Assembly (NCBI RefSeq): GCF_030546575.1
Contig: NZ_JAUOTN010000002.1
Span: 186,001-250,000, forward strand
DNA from: Pontibacter coccineus
GTDB taxonomy: Bacteria > Bacteroidota > Bacteroidia > Cytophagales > Hymenobacteraceae
Direction of reading: 5' to 3'
DNA length: 64,000 nucleotides
Of this stretch, positions 57,791 to 64,000 are shown in pieces (the first letter of the stretch is position 1; each line of letters starts with the position of its first letter). Both the position numbers and the translations under genes were made by a program. The notes under the pieces were generated by a model. It was not told the origin of the DNA. It was given only the letters and a program-made list of their open reading frames with translations, and ran no database searches.

Positions 57791-58222
57791 CTATTGATTC
57801 AGGAGGAATGGGTACTTGAAGTGTTTCGGGCTGTTGAGCTGCTGCTGGCGCATCATCACCTGCAGGGTATGGGCCGTTTCGTTGAAATACTCCAGCCTGC
57901 GGATCAGCATTTCTTTCTGCAGGATGACACCGCCTGCCGTTTTCATGTAAGCTTTTTTGTCTTCCATCACACGCTGCAGTGTATCCATCACCGTGTTCTC
58001 GTTTTGCTCAAACCAACGCGTGAAATCCTCCAGGCGGGCTGCCCCGGTCGTTTCAGATTTGAACTCAAGGCCGTGCAAACGCAGAATGTCGGCTAGCAGG
58101 TCTACCTCCAGCGGAATAGATACATTGTAAGGCATGGAGCGAACCTCCAGTTTGCTGTTCAGGGCTCCGATGATCGTGGCCAGGTTTTCTTTAAAGCGAA
58201 CGTATAGTGCTGCCGCCTCCAT
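57791..58222 (-). CDS. Conserved protein of unknown function
   Basis: 143 residues, mostly alpha-helical and without a signal peptide (MEAAALYVRFKENLATIIGA start; later VMDTLQRVMEDKKAYMKTAG, MLIRRLEYFNETAHTLQVMM). I do not recognise a family. It lies downstream of MoxR on the same strand but is separated from it by a repeat element. Confidence 0.7.
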   Translation of the reverse strand: MEAAALYVRFKENLATIIGALNSKLEVRSMPYNVSIPLEVDLLADILRLHGLEFKSETTGAARLEDFTRWFEQNENTVMDTLQRVMEDKKAYMKTAGGVILQKEMLIRRLEYFNETAHTLQVMMRQQQLNSPKHFKYPFLLNQ

Positions 58223-58549: not shown

Positions 58550-58550
58550 T
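58286..58550. repeat. MITE-like AT-rich inverted-repeat element, copy 2
   Basis: Left arm around 58286-58315 (CTAAATTGTTGG, GGTTAAATTGCT) and right arm 58511-58550 (AACAATTTAACCATCAACAA and on) are imperfect inverted repeats. Internal copies of AATTGCTAAATTG also occur (58390-58416). The right arm shares an exact run of about 21 bases, from ACCATCAACAATTT on, with the right arm of the element at 50572-50758, and likewise touches the stop codon of a minus-strand gene. Confidence 0.65.
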
Positions 58551-59515
58551 TATAACAACTCCTGTATCAGCTGCTCCACTGTTATACCTTCTGCCTCGGC
58601 TCTGAAGTTGCGCACGATGCGGTGACGGAGAATGGGCAAGGCCACAGCCTGCACGTCTTCTATATCAGGTGAGTATTTGCCGTTGAGCAGGGCGTTGCAC
58701 TTTGCCCCGATGATCAGATGCTGCGAGGCCCGTGGTCCGGCACCCCACTCGAGGTATTGGCTGGCTCGTTCAGATCCCATCGCTGTGTTAGGACGGGTTT
58801 TGTGCACCAGTTTCACGGCATACTCCACCACATTGTCCACCACCGGTACGCGGCGCACCAGTTGCTGGAAAGCCAGGATGTCATCAGCGTGCAGGATCTT
58901 GTCGAGGGCCACACGGGCAGCGCCGGTTGTGTTCTTCACAATCTGCAGTTCCGACTCGTAGCTCGGATAGCCCAACGTGATGTTGAACATGAAACGGTCG
59001 AGCTGTGCTTCGGGTAGGGGGTAGGTGCCTTCCTGCTCGATCGGGTTTTGAGTGGCCAGCACGAAGAAGGGGCGGGGCAGTTCGTAGCGCTTGCCGGCAA
59101 CGGTTACGGCATACTCCTGCATGGCCTCCAGCAGGGCCGCCTGCGTTTTAGGAGGTGTGCGGTTTATCTCATCCGCCAGAATGATGTTGGCGAAGATGGG
59201 GCCCGTCACGAAGTTGAAATTACGGTCCTTGTCCATCGTTTCGGCCCCTACAATGTCGCTCGGCATCAGGTCCGGGGTAAACTGCACCCGGCTGAAAGAC
59301 ATGTCGAGCGAGGAGGCGATGGTCTGGATGAGGAGGGTTTTGGCAAGGCCCGGCACGCCAACCAAGAGGCAGTGCCCCTGACAAAAAACAGCTGTGAGCA
59401 CCAGGCGCACGACTTCTTCCTGTCCTACGATCACTTTTGATATTTCGGAAGTGAGGTCGTGGTAGGACCGGTGCAGCGCGTCGGCTGCTTCTTTGTCAGA
59501 GGTATACTGCTTCAT
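58550..59515 (-). CDS. MoxR-family AAA+ ATPase
   Basis: 321 residues. Walker A GVPGLAKT (53-60), Walker B IILADEINRTPPKTQAALLE (about 110-129), sensor ATQNPIEQEGTYPLPEAQLD, and the C-terminal lid with SERASQYLEWGAGPRASQHL. MoxR ATPases act as chaperones, often with VWA/DUF58 partners; those are not adjacent here. It starts eight bases after the SurA-like gene, so it is probably cotranscribed with the PPIase genes. Confidence 0.93.
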   Translation of the reverse strand: MKQYTSDKEAADALHRSYHDLTSEISKVIVGQEEVVRLVLTAVFCQGHCLLVGVPGLAKTLLIQTIASSLDMSFSRVQFTPDLMPSDIVGAETMDKDRNFNFVTGPIFANIILADEINRTPPKTQAALLEAMQEYAVTVAGKRYELPRPFFVLATQNPIEQEGTYPLPEAQLDRFMFNITLGYPSYESELQIVKNTTGAARVALDKILHADDILAFQQLVRRVPVVDNVVEYAVKLVHKTRPNTAMGSERASQYLEWGAGPRASQHLIIGAKCNALLNGKYSPDIEDVQAVALPILRHRIVRNFRAEAEGITVEQLIQELL

Positions 59516-59523
59516 GTAGGTGT

Positions 59524-60900
59524 CTATTGCGTTAAGTCAAGCACTTTGCATTGGTCGTACTCCGGGTCGATCTCAATGAACACGGTGTCCATGTTCTTTC
59601 GGAACCACTCATCCACAGCCTTGTCTCGCTTCTGCGCCAGAGCGGCGGCGGCTATCTTCTGGTAGTCGTCGCTCATATTGGCCACGTGAGGAGTCGATTT
59701 GTAGCGAAGCATAATGATACGGGCTGCCTCTCTGCCGTCAGGCGTGGTAAAGGTCACCGGCTTCGACACGTCACCCACTTTCATGGTGTCGATCACGAAG
59801 AAAATACCTGGCTCCACTTCATTCATCGGGATGTACGAATTACCCGTCATACGACTGATGATGGTACCTCCGTTGTCCTTTGTGTTCTTATCGTCCGAAA
59901 ATTCTTTGGCAGCCTTTGCAAAGCTGATGCTGTCGTTCACGATGAGGGTGCGCACGCTGTCCAGTGCGGCGATCGCGTCCTGCACATCCACGCGGGCAGT
60001 TTCAGGTTTGATGAGGATGTGACGTGTGTTGAACTCCTGACCCTTGCGCTCGATCAGCTGGATCAGGTGAAAACCGAACATCGACTCGATTACGTTCGAC
60101 ATCTGGCCTGGCTCGAGGCGCAGCGCAGCAGCTTCGTACTCCGGCACCAGTTCTTTTTTCTTGAAGAAACCAAGCTCTCCGCCTGCTTCTGCCGAGCCCG
60201 GGTCTTCTGAGTGTTCTTTTGCCAATGTGGCAAAATCTTCCCCGGCCACAATGCGGGCACGCAGTGCTTCCAGCTTCTGGCGGGCTGCCTGCTTCTGCTG
60301 GCGGCTCACCTCGGCATACTTCACAATGTGGCTCAGCTGCACTTCGCTCGAGAAGTAAGGCAAGCTGTCAGCGGGGATCTGGTTGAAATAGCGGCGTACC
60401 TCTTTCGGGGTTACGGTTACTTTGTCAGTGATCTCGCGCTGCATCTTTTCCGATACCATCTGGTTGCGAACAGAGCGGCGCAGTTCGTCGCGCAGTTGTT
60501 TCACGCTCTTGTTATAATATTGTTCCAGACGCTCTGTACCGCCTACCTGCGAGGCCAGGTAATCAATTCTGCGGTTCAGTTCGCCGGTTATGGCAGTTTC
60601 TTCCACTACAACAGAGTCGATCTCGGCACGGGCCAGCAACAGCTTCTCCTGCACCATCGATTTCAGAATCTCGCACTTCATGGGCTCGGTCTGCGCGCTC
60701 GGCTGCTGTTTGTTCTGGGCCAGGAACTGCAGGTAGCTGAACTCAAGCTCCGATCGCAGGATCACGTGGTTGTCTACCTTGGCTATGATGCCATCCAGTT
60801 TCTTCTGGGTAGGCGCCTGTGCCGTAGCTGTTGTAAAGGCTGTGATCAGGCTGAGCAGTAGCAGGGCCAGGGTTTTCGTTTTATGGGTTGTGTTATGCAT
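59524..60900 (-). CDS. SurA-like periplasmic peptidyl-prolyl isomerase
   Basis: 458 residues with a signal peptide (TLALLLLSLITAFTTATAQA, cut near 28). SurA N-terminal domain about 35-165 (DGIIAKVDNHVILRSELEFS), then two parvulin domains: about 180-285 (VQLSHIVKYAEVSRQQKQAA, DPGSAEAGGELGFFKKKELV) and 292-400 (FNTRHILIKPETARVDVQDA, TKDNGGTIISRMTGNSYIP). It helps outer-membrane proteins fold. It follows the larger PPIase lipoprotein gene by 36 bases. Confidence 0.93.
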   Translation of the reverse strand: MHNTTHKTKTLALLLLSLITAFTTATAQAPTQKKLDGIIAKVDNHVILRSELEFSYLQFLAQNKQQPSAQTEPMKCEILKSMVQEKLLLARAEIDSVVVEETAITGELNRRIDYLASQVGGTERLEQYYNKSVKQLRDELRRSVRNQMVSEKMQREITDKVTVTPKEVRRYFNQIPADSLPYFSSEVQLSHIVKYAEVSRQQKQAARQKLEALRARIVAGEDFATLAKEHSEDPGSAEAGGELGFFKKKELVPEYEAAALRLEPGQMSNVIESMFGFHLIQLIERKGQEFNTRHILIKPETARVDVQDAIAALDSVRTLIVNDSISFAKAAKEFSDDKNTKDNGGTIISRMTGNSYIPMNEVEPGIFFVIDTMKVGDVSKPVTFTTPDGREAARIIMLRYKSTPHVANMSDDYQKIAAAALAQKRDKAVDEWFRKNMDTVFIEIDPEYDQCKVLDLTQ

Positions 60901-60936: not shown

Positions 60937-63246
60937 TTATTTTCTGATGATTTTATCGACCTCTGTCTGGTTAACGCTAACCGGATTTTTTTCCTGCAGC
61001 TGCTTTACCCATTGCTCGTCCAGGTAGTTCTGGTAGTCGGCCGTTACCTGGCCTCTCACCTCGGAAAGCTGCTTCGGAGCAGGAGCCAGCACATCGTGCA
61101 CGATCACCAGGTACTGGCGTCCGTTCAGTTCGGTGTTGTAAGTGCCCTTTTCCCACTTCACAGCGTCTACAGCTTTGTTCTCGCCTTTCTGGAATTTCTT
61201 CTCTGTGATCTGCACACCCAGCGGGTTGCCGGCATTCAGGTTTTCGGCCAGCACGCTTAGTTCAGGCGAGTAAAGCGTGAACGATACGCGTCTGTTGCGG
61301 CGGCGACCGGTTTCGGTATTGTCAGCGGCGGCCTGCTTTGTCTTGCCCAGAGCTTTGGCGCTGAGTTGGCTGGCTGGTACGCCACGCTTGGTCAGGTAGG
61401 CGACAATGGCTTTGGAGCGCTCAGCAGAGAGGTTGCGCTTGCCCGCTGCCTCACGTGCGTCGGCATGGCCGTTCACTTCCAGCGTCAGGTTCGGGTTATT
61501 GCTCAGGCGGTCAGCCAGTTCGTTCAGGCGCGCTATACTTGCCTGATCCGGCGTGGCGCTGTTTGTCTCAAACGAAATGTCGGCTGGTTTGCCGTTGCGT
61601 ACCTCGTAGCGGCGATCGTTCAACTGCTGCTGGGCCTTGTTGAGCAGTTCCGCATTGGCAGCACTGATCACGGTGGCGTGCGCACGCTCTTTCCACTGGT
61701 ACTTGTCGCGGTTCTGATCAAAAAATGCCTTCAGTCCAGTGGTGTCTTCCACCGCCTTAGACCATACCTTCTCGTCCATCAACTGGAAAAGCAGGATGCC
61801 GTCGTGGTACTCACGTACCAGCATGCGGTAGTCAGGGTATTTGTTCTCCAGGTTAGCACGCTCATACGCCAGCAGGCTCTTCTGCACAAAGTTGTCGTAG
61901 AGCGAGTTCATGTGGTGTTGCGGAGTGCCGGCCATGCGCGGGCGCTGCTCCGCTTTCACGTAGGTATAGAAGTCGGCTACGGTATAAGGCTTGCCCTGAA
62001 TCGTGAACAAGTTGTTCTTCAGCGTTTTGTCGGCGGCATCAAAATCCCACTTGCCTTGCAGCAGGTCGTCTGTCGCCTTGCTTAAAGCCGCGGCTTTGAC
62101 AGTAGCGTCTTCGGTAAAGTTGTTTTCTGATTTAATGCGCTTTAGGAAGGCCGCCTTGTTGAGCTCGGATCGGGAGTCCTTGGCGATCTTGTTGCGCAGG
62201 TTTTGCTCCATGTCCTCGAACGAAGGGATGGGTTGCTTGCCGAGCAGCTTGATGATGTGCCAGCCATAGGGTGTCAGGACAGGAGGGGCCACTTCGCCTT
62301 CTTTCTTGAGGGCAAATGCCACTTCCTCGAAAGACGGAATCATGCGGCCAGTACCGAACCAGGGCAGTTCACCGCCGTTGGCGGCAGAGTTGGCGTCTTC
62401 CGAAAACTCAGCCGCCAGGCGGTCCCAGTTCTCGTTGCGCTGCACACGCTTGTAAATGGCGTCCACGCGCTGCTTGGCAGCCAGCGAGTCTGCCTTTGGA
62501 ATGCCCGGCGTGGCGCGCACCATGATGTGGGCCACTTTCACTTCGCCCTGCGCGGCACGTTTGTCGTTTACTTTGATCAGGTGATAGCCAAAACGGGAGC
62601 GAACCGGCTGCGAGATCTGGCCAACCGGTGTTTTGTAGGCGGCGTCTTCGAAGCGGTACACCATCTGCATGGCTGTGAAATAACCCAGGTTGCCACCGTT
62701 CTCGCTGGCGGATGGGTCGTGAGAAAACTCACGGGCCAGCTTGCCGAAATCCTCACCGGCCTCGAGCCGCTTGCGCAGCTCCAGGGCCTGGTTGTAGGCA
62801 GCCAGGGTGTCCTGCGGGCTCGGGTCGTTTGGCAGGCCCAGCAGTATGTGCGATGCGTTTACCTCCTGTTTCAGGCGCTCGTAAGCTTCCCGCACCAGTT
62901 GGTCGGTCACGCTCTTTTCAGTGAGGTAGGGTTGTGCAAGCTGCTCTTTGTAGCCCTCCAGTTCGCGCTTAAAAGCGGCAGTGGTGTCCAGGCCACGGCC
63001 CTCGCCTTCCATCACCTTCAGTTTAAACCGGGTATAGAGGTCGAGGTACTCGCTTACACTCTGGCGGGTATAGGCGTCTTCATTGCCCCCGTTGTTCTTC
63101 TCATACACATACTGAAACTCGGATGTGTAGATAGGTTGGGATCCAATGGTCGCAATGATAGGTTCCTGCTTGTCATTCTTCTTAGTTGCGGTACAGCCGG
63201 CCATAACAAGGGCCGCTGCCGCAACAAGTAGTTGATTGCTGCGCAT
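60937..63246 (-). CDS. PPIase lipoprotein with a nested OmpA-like domain
   Basis: 769 residues from the ATG at 63246, chosen because it gives a lipoprotein signal (MRSNQLLVAAAALVMAGCTA, Cys18); an upstream ATG adds 18 residues. Two parvulin domains lie at about 130-235 (VNASHILLGLPNDPSPQDTL, ENGGNLGYFTAMQMVYRFED) and 240-350 (VKVAHIMVRATPGIPKADSL, NGGELPWFGTGRMIPSFEEV). Residues about 555-660 are OmpA-like and peptidoglycan-binding in type (LEVNGHADAREAAGKRNLSA, LSAERSKAIVAYLTKRGVPA, TGRRRNRRVSFTL), inserted within the helical PPIase C-terminal region, which resumes at VQITEKKFQKGENKAVDAVK. Likely an envelope chaperone held to the cell wall. First of three genes with SurA and MoxR. Confidence 0.87.
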   Translation of the reverse strand: MRSNQLLVAAAALVMAGCTATKKNDKQEPIIATIGSQPIYTSEFQYVYEKNNGGNEDAYTRQSVSEYLDLYTRFKLKVMEGEGRGLDTTAAFKRELEGYKEQLAQPYLTEKSVTDQLVREAYERLKQEVNASHILLGLPNDPSPQDTLAAYNQALELRKRLEAGEDFGKLAREFSHDPSASENGGNLGYFTAMQMVYRFEDAAYKTPVGQISQPVRSRFGYHLIKVNDKRAAQGEVKVAHIMVRATPGIPKADSLAAKQRVDAIYKRVQRNENWDRLAAEFSEDANSAANGGELPWFGTGRMIPSFEEVAFALKKEGEVAPPVLTPYGWHIIKLLGKQPIPSFEDMEQNLRNKIAKDSRSELNKAAFLKRIKSENNFTEDATVKAAALSKATDDLLQGKWDFDAADKTLKNNLFTIQGKPYTVADFYTYVKAEQRPRMAGTPQHHMNSLYDNFVQKSLLAYERANLENKYPDYRMLVREYHDGILLFQLMDEKVWSKAVEDTTGLKAFFDQNRDKYQWKERAHATVISAANAELLNKAQQQLNDRRYEVRNGKPADISFETNSATPDQASIARLNELADRLSNNPNLTLEVNGHADAREAAGKRNLSAERSKAIVAYLTKRGVPASQLSAKALGKTKQAAADNTETGRRRNRRVSFTLYSPELSVLAENLNAGNPLGVQITEKKFQKGENKAVDAVKWEKGTYNTELNGRQYLVIVHDVLAPAPKQLSEVRGQVTADYQNYLDEQWVKQLQEKNPVSVNQTEVDKIIRK

Positions 63247-63410: not shown

Positions 63411-63821
63411 CTATTTAATTTTTTTGTACAGGAAGCAGGTGTTCTGGCTGTCGCTAGTCTCAAATTCCACACGGTCCATGATGCGGTTGACGAGGGCGAT
63501 GCCGACGCCCCCCTTTTTTCCGACCCGGATGTGCTCTTCGATGTTGGGCTCTTTATACTCAGAGCGGCGGAAGGCCACCCCGTTGTCGACGATCTCGAAT
63601 TTGAGCATGCCCGCCTTCTCCGTGATGAAGAGGGAAATGCTTTTGGACGGGTCTTCGCTGTTGGCATGGATGATGAGGTTGGCGCATATCTCATCCACGG
63701 CCAATACGATCTGGTTCATCTGGATGTCTGTCAGGGTATACGCTGCCAGATACTCCGTCACGAAGTCCCGTATTTGCTTCAGATTTTTTTTAGTACAGCT
63801 AACTGTAATTTTATTATTCAT
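63411..63821 (-). CDS. RsbW-like anti-sigma factor (HATPase kinase)
   Basis: 136 residues from the ATG at 63821; a TTG two codons upstream is less likely. The GHKL ATPase boxes are visible: N box IVLAVDEICANLIIHAN (about 40-56), G1-like FEIVDNGVAF and G2 RVGKKGGVGIALVNRIMD. Such kinases phosphorylate STAS antagonists or bind a sigma factor. Its start overlaps the STAS gene end by eight bases, so the two form a partner-switching pair. The controlled sigma factor or effector is not visible here. Confidence 0.88.
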   Translation of the reverse strand: MNNKITVSCTKKNLKQIRDFVTEYLAAYTLTDIQMNQIVLAVDEICANLIIHANSEDPSKSISLFITEKAGMLKFEIVDNGVAFRRSEYKEPNIEEHIRVGKKGGVGIALVNRIMDRVEFETSDSQNTCFLYKKIK

Positions 63822-64000
63822 CAGCAATGGTCATGGCTTCCTCGTAATCCGAAACGATGGTCATGAGCAGGTCGAGGCCCAGGATTTCGAATACGTTGCG
63901 CACTTTGTCCTGCATGTTGTAGAAAATGAGTTTGATCTGTGCATCCTCAAAGCGCTGCAGGTGCGAGATGAACACCCCAAGGCCGGCAGACGATATGTAG
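63814..64000 (-). CDS. STAS-domain anti-sigma factor antagonist (partial)
   Basis: The 3-prime end of a gene that continues beyond the window; the last 61 codons are seen. It reads YISSAGLGVFISHLQRFEDA, then LIFYNMQDKVRNVFEILGLD and DYEEAMTIADE. The SSAGLGVF segment is the conserved phosphorylatable-serine loop of STAS antagonists (SpoIIAA/RsbV). Overlaps the start of the RsbW-like gene. Confidence 0.88.
   Translation of the reverse strand, partial: YISSAGLGVFISHLQRFEDAQIKLIFYNMQDKVRNVFEILGLDLLMTIVSDYEEAMTIADE

Follow-up and report, generated by a model that had tools for sequence, protein, structure and literature searches.

The chaperone gene and its neighbours

The 64-kb window (the whole stretch of DNA analysed) carries on its minus strand the gene P0001, which encodes a PPIase and probable lipoprotein (Table 1). 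Pfam found two parvulin domains in the protein, as the first-pass annotation had claimed: Rotamase_3 (PF13616; 8.2e-55, 184.8 bits against a cut-off of 22.5) and Rotamase (PF00639; 7.5e-53, 177.9 bits against 21.7) each matched in two stretches. Invariant histidines were found in the alignments of both domains, H10 and H99 in that of domain 1 (23 rows; SHIL...GYH in P0001) and H7 and H97 in that of domain 2 (22 rows; AHIM...GWH in P0001), and we take these motifs to have a catalytic, active-site role. The OmpA-type domain that the same annotation had placed at about residues 555-660 was likewise borne out, since PF00691 matched significantly at residues 559-652 (1e-15, 58.3 bits; curated cut-off 27.2), positions 2-98 of the 98 in the profile were covered, and the motifs quoted for the domain are present. 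After residue ~347, nothing on either side of OmpA rose above the Pfam cut-offs. There are 18 PF00691 matches in the genome, 17 of them over the cut-off, and the one in the chaperone ranks 15th by score.

Table 1. Features of the chaperone locus, with coordinates in the window
Feature	Position	Strand	Basis or remark
PPIase gene P0001, probable lipoprotein, 769 aa	60937..63246	-	ORF (ATG at 63246, stop at 60937); Pfam; full-length matches within genus
Signal peptide and lipobox, residues 1-18 (...LVMAGC)	63193..63246	-	Pattern only
Parvulin domain 1, residues 124-230	62557..62877	-	Pfam; invariant His columns
Parvulin domain 2, residues ~235-342	62221..62544	-	Pfam; PDB sequence match; invariant His columns
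Third parvulin-like domain, N-terminal half, residues ~505-552	61591..61734	-	Alignment; predicted structures
Inserted OmpA/Pal domain, residues 553-659	61270..61590	-	Pfam; predicted structure; alignments to solved domains
Third parvulin-like domain, C-terminal half, residues 663-720	61087..61260	-	Predicted structures
Asp596, aligned with the diaminopimelate-binding Asp of OmpA domains	61459..61461	-	Alignments; PMC12108004 (accessible part)
Arg610, aligned with the diaminopimelate-binding Arg of OmpA domains	61417..61419	-	Alignments; PMC12108004 (accessible part)
SurA-like chaperone gene, SurA_N-type and two rotamase stretches	59524..60900	-	Downstream; Pfam
MoxR-type AAA ATPase gene	58550..59515	-	Downstream; Pfam
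HATPase_c_2 gene, RsbW/anti-sigma-like	63411..63827	-	Upstream; below NCBIfam equivalog cut-offs

By pattern, the N-terminus of P0001 (MRSNQLLVAAAALVMAGC) holds a lipobox-like signal. Acidic residues at +2 to +6 of lipoproteins are a signal for surface export; in P0001 these positions read TATKK, with no acid. Full-length matches (residues 1-768 or 1-769) were found in 37/37 genomes of the genus, the genome under study included, and this rules out an assembly or fusion artefact. The nearest named relatives are Pontibacter proteins (93-96% identical); Pontibacter and Hymenobacter are both placed in Cytophagales, Hymenobacteraceae (NCBI). A 342-aa frame on the plus strand (62203-63231) runs antisense to the chaperone gene, probably by chance.

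P0001 shares two consecutive parvulin domains with SurA, the periplasmic chaperone of E. coli, which is also its best PDB sequence match (1m5y, E 1.5e-27, residues 126-346). What sets it apart from SurA is a lipobox and an additional, long C-terminal half, which contains a third parvulin-like domain and the OmpA insert; a separate SurA-like gene also follows it. Its scores against equivalog models all lay below the cut-offs: 118.5 bits for the NCBIfam SurA model NF008038 (cut-off 394), 144 and 153 bits for the PrsA models (361 and 343), and 42.4 bits for the Pal model TIGR02802 (125.35). The order HATPase, PPIase, SurA-like, MoxR on one strand was found in 80/80 named loci, the best 80 of 145 relatives, from Pontibacter, Adhaeribacter, Hymenobacter, Solirubrum and one Sporocytophaga. 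A 143-aa gene at 57791-58222 matched no Pfam family and gave one NCBIfam line far below the cut-off (E 0.05), and Rfam and tRNA scans of the window found none.

The OmpA domain and its host

The search for homologues covered 59 relatives, 241 genomes of the order and 198 of the class, and yielded matches in 55 (at 1e-30), 198 (1e-60) and 176 (1e-40) of these, respectively. They are of two kinds. Matches of the first kind extend to roughly residue 768 and mostly lie in frames of 760-830 residues; those of the second mostly end near 530-560, and their frames mostly have 645-700. Some of these latter frames are longer, up to 846 residues, through other extensions or insertions, and OmpA is absent from the longer ones that were fetched (L157-L164). 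In a first alignment of 67 rows (60 fetched representatives, the window protein and six named loci), 31 rows have the OmpA domain. In each of the other 36, the columns that hold residues 548-665 of P0001, 118 in all, contain 5-8 residues.

The third domain of such an OmpA-less homologue, when predicted alone, gave one compact fold (pLDDT 94). In a model of P0001 residues 490-769 with the insert (mean pLDDT 88, pTM 0.71), strands and helices of the third domain flank OmpA on both sides: a strand (521-529) and a helix (532-542) precede it, and a helix (663-670) and three strands (678-686, 701-707 and 710-720) follow. The predicted insert itself, P0001 553-659 (model residues 64-170), superposes on A. 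baumannii Pal with Z 17.9 and rmsd 1.9 over 105 aligned residues. It thus shares its fold with the Pal/OmpA C-terminal domain and differs in placement, being nested inside another domain, whereas the Pal/OmpA domain is free or C-terminal. In the model, OmpA occupies the loop that joins helix 1 to helix 2 of the third domain and is a true nested insertion. Sequence and predicted structure together give P0001 two well-preserved parvulin domains, a helical stretch and this third domain. The first-pass annotation had described a PPIase-type region continuing on both sides of OmpA and had called the arrangement a domain insertion. The former was right in substance, as ~505-550 and ~663-720 are the halves of the third domain, and the latter holds, as the flanks form a single domain, which runs unbroken in 36/36 OmpA-less homologues. 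The two outcomes named beforehand as speaking against it, namely no significant OmpA match and flanks that are two separate domains in all homologues, did not occur.

With moderate confidence, we assign the host of the insert as a third, degenerate, parvulin-like domain, on the strength of predicted structure together with weak and partial profile matches. Its order of strands and helices in the predicted structures fits the parvulin fold. Foldseek gave five matches with E <= 0.001, namely PEB4 (1.8e-5), three chains of H. pylori HP_0175/Cell binding factor 2 and a YRVJ-YACD model, and TM-scores by query length of the five best matches were 0.29-0.40. In a second look with VIA, whose tables re-align only top-ranked Foldseek matches, 48/50 rows bore names of PPIases, parvulins or SurA/PrsA-type chaperones, and LIC12922 and YRVJ-YACD made up the rest; the best Z was 7.0, below the tool's caution level of 8. 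A third-domain profile searched against the PDB found Cj1289 (4.5e-4, profile positions 5-46 of 156) and PEB4 (2.7e-3), both weak and partial, and after them mostly unrelated Rab proteins. Against the two parvulin domains of the same proteins, its hhalign probability was under 1%. The third domain resembles the parvulin-like chaperone folds of the SurA-like foldases PrsA, PEB4 and Cj1289. PrsA is a lipoprotein; to our knowledge none of the three has an OmpA domain.

That the flanks might instead be two independent domains in all homologues, with OmpA as a plain domain placed in a linker, would agree with the silence of Pfam beside OmpA and with the hhalign result, but 47 of the 91 rows of a larger alignment lack OmpA and the flanks, nearly abutting in the 36 rows measured, are predicted as one fold, so we reject this highly improbable reading.

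Distribution and history of the insert

The profile of the OmpA-bearing C-terminus gave some match at 1e-12 in 370/390 genomes of the order, a figure that is no count of carriers because it includes OmpA-less homologues and other OmpA proteins. In a class sample of 395 genomes it gave 10 matches at 1e-36: the genome under study, seven others of the order, G298 outside it (full length) and G346 (C-terminal part only). In a phylum sample of 296 genomes there were six at 1e-30, five of the order and G411 (C-terminal part only). These two thresholds could miss degenerate carriers; within the order, the carriers G241, G478 and G560 score only 1e-33 to 1e-37.

The larger alignment has 43 rows with OmpA and 47 without, with L186 not counted. 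Among the homologues fetched and aligned, carriers occur in 14/18 families of the order (f1, f2, f4, f5, f7, f9, f10, f11, f14, f15, f17, f18, f20 and f22, where the codes denote families in the genome collection searched) and, outside it, in G298. The sampled members of f3 and f12 (one genome each), f16 (two) and f19 (many) are without the insert, as are all 30 other rows from outside the order. At the thresholds used, no homologue was found in families f6, f8, f13 and f21, which have small genomes, nor in single genomes of f2, f9 and f20 and a few of f19. The gene of G298 (L147/L269), the one carrier found outside the order and the sole genome of its own order in the collection, is cut by a contig end. 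Its insert is canonical (75 bits), with Gly kept at Asp+3; in 28/31 carriers Glu stands there instead of the canonical Gly.

Four f19 loci of genus g235 (L186, L253, L255 and L258) have an insert of ~80 residues at the same place. It had no significant match to the OmpA-insert profile (E 0.6-1.3), and its end resembles the last OmpA strand; as a guess, it may be a decayed OmpA domain. Within the family of the genome under study, the match at G273:C1:2345949-2347493 covers residues 248-769 and has internal stop codons, and a second match is present, so that this chaperone gene may be broken or frameshifted.

Two trees were built, a quick one of all 91 rows and a careful one of 60 rows with the insert columns removed, for which 31 of the 91 rows, carriers and non-carriers, were dropped. 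They agree that the labels are clustered and disagree on deep branching. In the 60-row tree, a split with 99/99 support separates the order together with G298 from OmpA-less rows belonging to other orders. We conclude that the insert was probably gained a single time, close to the base of the order (Cytophagales, judging from its named relatives), and then lost from some families. Several independent insertions at the same loop would account for the carriers not forming one clade, as the 60-row tree needs at least 6 changes (bootstrap range 5-8), a single carrier clade appeared in 0% of 200 bootstrap trees and had an AU p of 0.032, and one carrier (L147) lies outside the order; the bootstrap had not settled. 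We nevertheless consider this improbable: the same type of domain sits at the same loop in all 43 carriers, the Glu at Asp+3 is widely shared among them, all 31 carriers of the tree fall within the group of the order plus G298, and the well-supported branches alone force only 1 change.

Lipobox calls across 90 rows, by pattern only and with L147 left out because its gene is cut, were positive in 36/42 carriers of the order against 4/30 OmpA-less rows from other orders; of these four, at least two (L157 and L158) look doubtful. They were also positive in 10/17 OmpA-less rows of the order and in L186. The carrier L139 (...FQC) was scored negative and may yet be a lipoprotein. For most rows from elsewhere in the class, the sequence suggests a soluble periplasmic protein with an ordinary signal peptide. 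Judged by these patterns, lipid anchor and OmpA insert appear to go together broadly with the order, in counts that are uncorrected for kinship.

The diaminopimelate pocket and its proposed role

In A. baumannii OmpA, diaminopimelate is bound by Asp271 and Arg286, according to the accessible part of PMC12108004. In alignments to solved OmpA domains, Asp596 and Arg610 of P0001 stand at the places of this conserved pair. We surveyed 126 distinct inserts from 145 rows. The pocket Arg was invariant (126/126). The Asp was kept in 41/41 Pontibacter, 3/3 Adhaeribacter and 22/37 other distinct carriers, being missing in the remaining 15 of these; in Hymenobacter (loci L071-L116 without L094) it was found in 0/45 distinct sequences, with Lys in 41 and Arg in 4. 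The spacing between the two positions was 14 in 33 inserts, 11 in 84 and another value in 9, and the short spacing of 11 also occurs in 10/41 Pontibacter. Judged from these alignments, the pocket is not maintained across the whole family of carriers.

Other OmpA domains served as a control, taken from the genome under study and five further ones (48 loci, 4 of which gave no row). Among the 49 rows besides the PPIase, some of which are the same domain seen from two loci, Asp was present in 48 and Arg in 49, and the exception without Asp (TCDVG) looks like a one-residue shift. In G066, whose chaperone groups with Hymenobacter, six OmpA loci were fetched of 20 PF00691 matches, and all have Asp. 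Since the control domains keep it, loss of the Asp is specific to the chaperone insert and does not concern the OmpA domains of these genomes generally.

Selective constraint was compared by dN/dS (Nei-Gojobori, median for close pairs); median dS was 0.81-1.09, near saturation, so that only the contrast between regions is meant. For Pontibacter (65 pairs, 64 for the insert) the values were 0.047 in the parvulins, 0.068 in the third-domain flanks and 0.094 in the OmpA insert, and for Hymenobacter (672 pairs, 653 for the insert) they were 0.169, 0.262 and 0.619. In the Pontibacter insert, G593, H594, D596, E599 and R610 are invariant in 31/31.

We consider it fairly probable that P0001 is a SurA/PrsA-like periplasmic chaperone that is held by lipid and, in Pontibacter, grips the wall via its nested OmpA domain. 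The N-terminal Cys would be lipidated and tether the protein to the outer membrane on its inner side, and the insert would grip the meso-diaminopimelate of peptidoglycan stems with Asp596 and Arg610. The chaperone would then sit between outer membrane and wall, on the path of unfolded outer-membrane and secreted proteins, and probably work with the SurA-like protein encoded next to it. A single insertion of OmpA near the base of the order would have been followed by losses, with the pocket changed in other families. For the Pontibacter insert, a wall anchor is the best reading and a reasonably likely one, because the Asp/Arg pair is kept in all 41 sequences, the insert has a dN/dS of about 0.09 and the protein has a lipobox; in the Pal/OmpA domain, too, this pair is present. 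The first-pass annotation had the insert fix a folding chaperone to the cell wall. As far as sequence can tell, this stands for Pontibacter, where both pocket residues are kept under strong purifying selection, and fails as a general statement, the Asp being missing in every distinct Hymenobacter sequence and in 15 of the 37 other distinct carriers.

Those losses and the reversal in Hymenobacter would fit an insert that is a spacer or a protein-docking module, in which peptidoglycan binding is ancestral and dispensable, as would the absence of the whole insert in sampled members of four families (f3, f12, f16 and f19) and the insert of G066, the weakest of its 20 PF00691 matches (32 bits). Its docking partners might, just as tentatively, be the neighbouring SurA-like protein or the BAM complex, for example. 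The strong purifying selection on the Pontibacter insert, its five invariant residues and the pocket Arg kept throughout the 126 inserts all speak against a spacer or docking module, and we hold it to be rather unlikely.

A comparable case may be BamM of the Flavobacterium BAM complex, which, by its description in the accessible part of PMC12611786, bears lipid, as P0001 probably does, and has a PPIase fold at the outer membrane of one Bacteroidota species; it differs in having an N-terminal PPI domain and a calcium-bound C-terminal domain. The same source, in the part accessible to us, portrays the outer-membrane assembly machinery of Bacteroidota as heavily remodelled, and the words parvulin, PPIase, SurA and peptidoglycan are absent from its main text. 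In the papers searched, with most subscription journals outside their scope, we found no description of an OmpA-in-parvulin architecture, and the accessible part of PMC9820271 does not mention one.

In Hymenobacter, the insert keeps a basic residue at position 596 and Arg610 in 45/45 sequences, Glu599 in 43/45 and Gly at 598 in 41/45. To judge from the aligned sequences, a new role fits a fast-changing domain that keeps the basic residue everywhere better than plain decay does; a change in a common ancestor with slow loss afterwards is also possible. A canonical wall-anchor function is unlikely here. It is conceivable, and in our view distinctly doubtful, that the insert changed its ligand rather than decayed, with the acidic pocket residue now basic and the Arg kept. 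If so, the doubly basic pocket would bind an acidic ligand instead of diaminopimelate, such as an envelope phosphate or carboxylate or an acidic protein patch, and the target of a single nested anchoring module would have changed from one genus to another within one family.

The usual picture of a periplasmic chaperone such as SurA is one of free diffusion. If the proposed anchoring is true, P0001 would be immobilised by both lipid and cell wall, by way of a defined domain insertion. Nature offers forms that lack the insert, forms whose pocket is intact and forms whose pocket has its charge reversed, and these would allow a direct test of what a chaperone gains from tethering.
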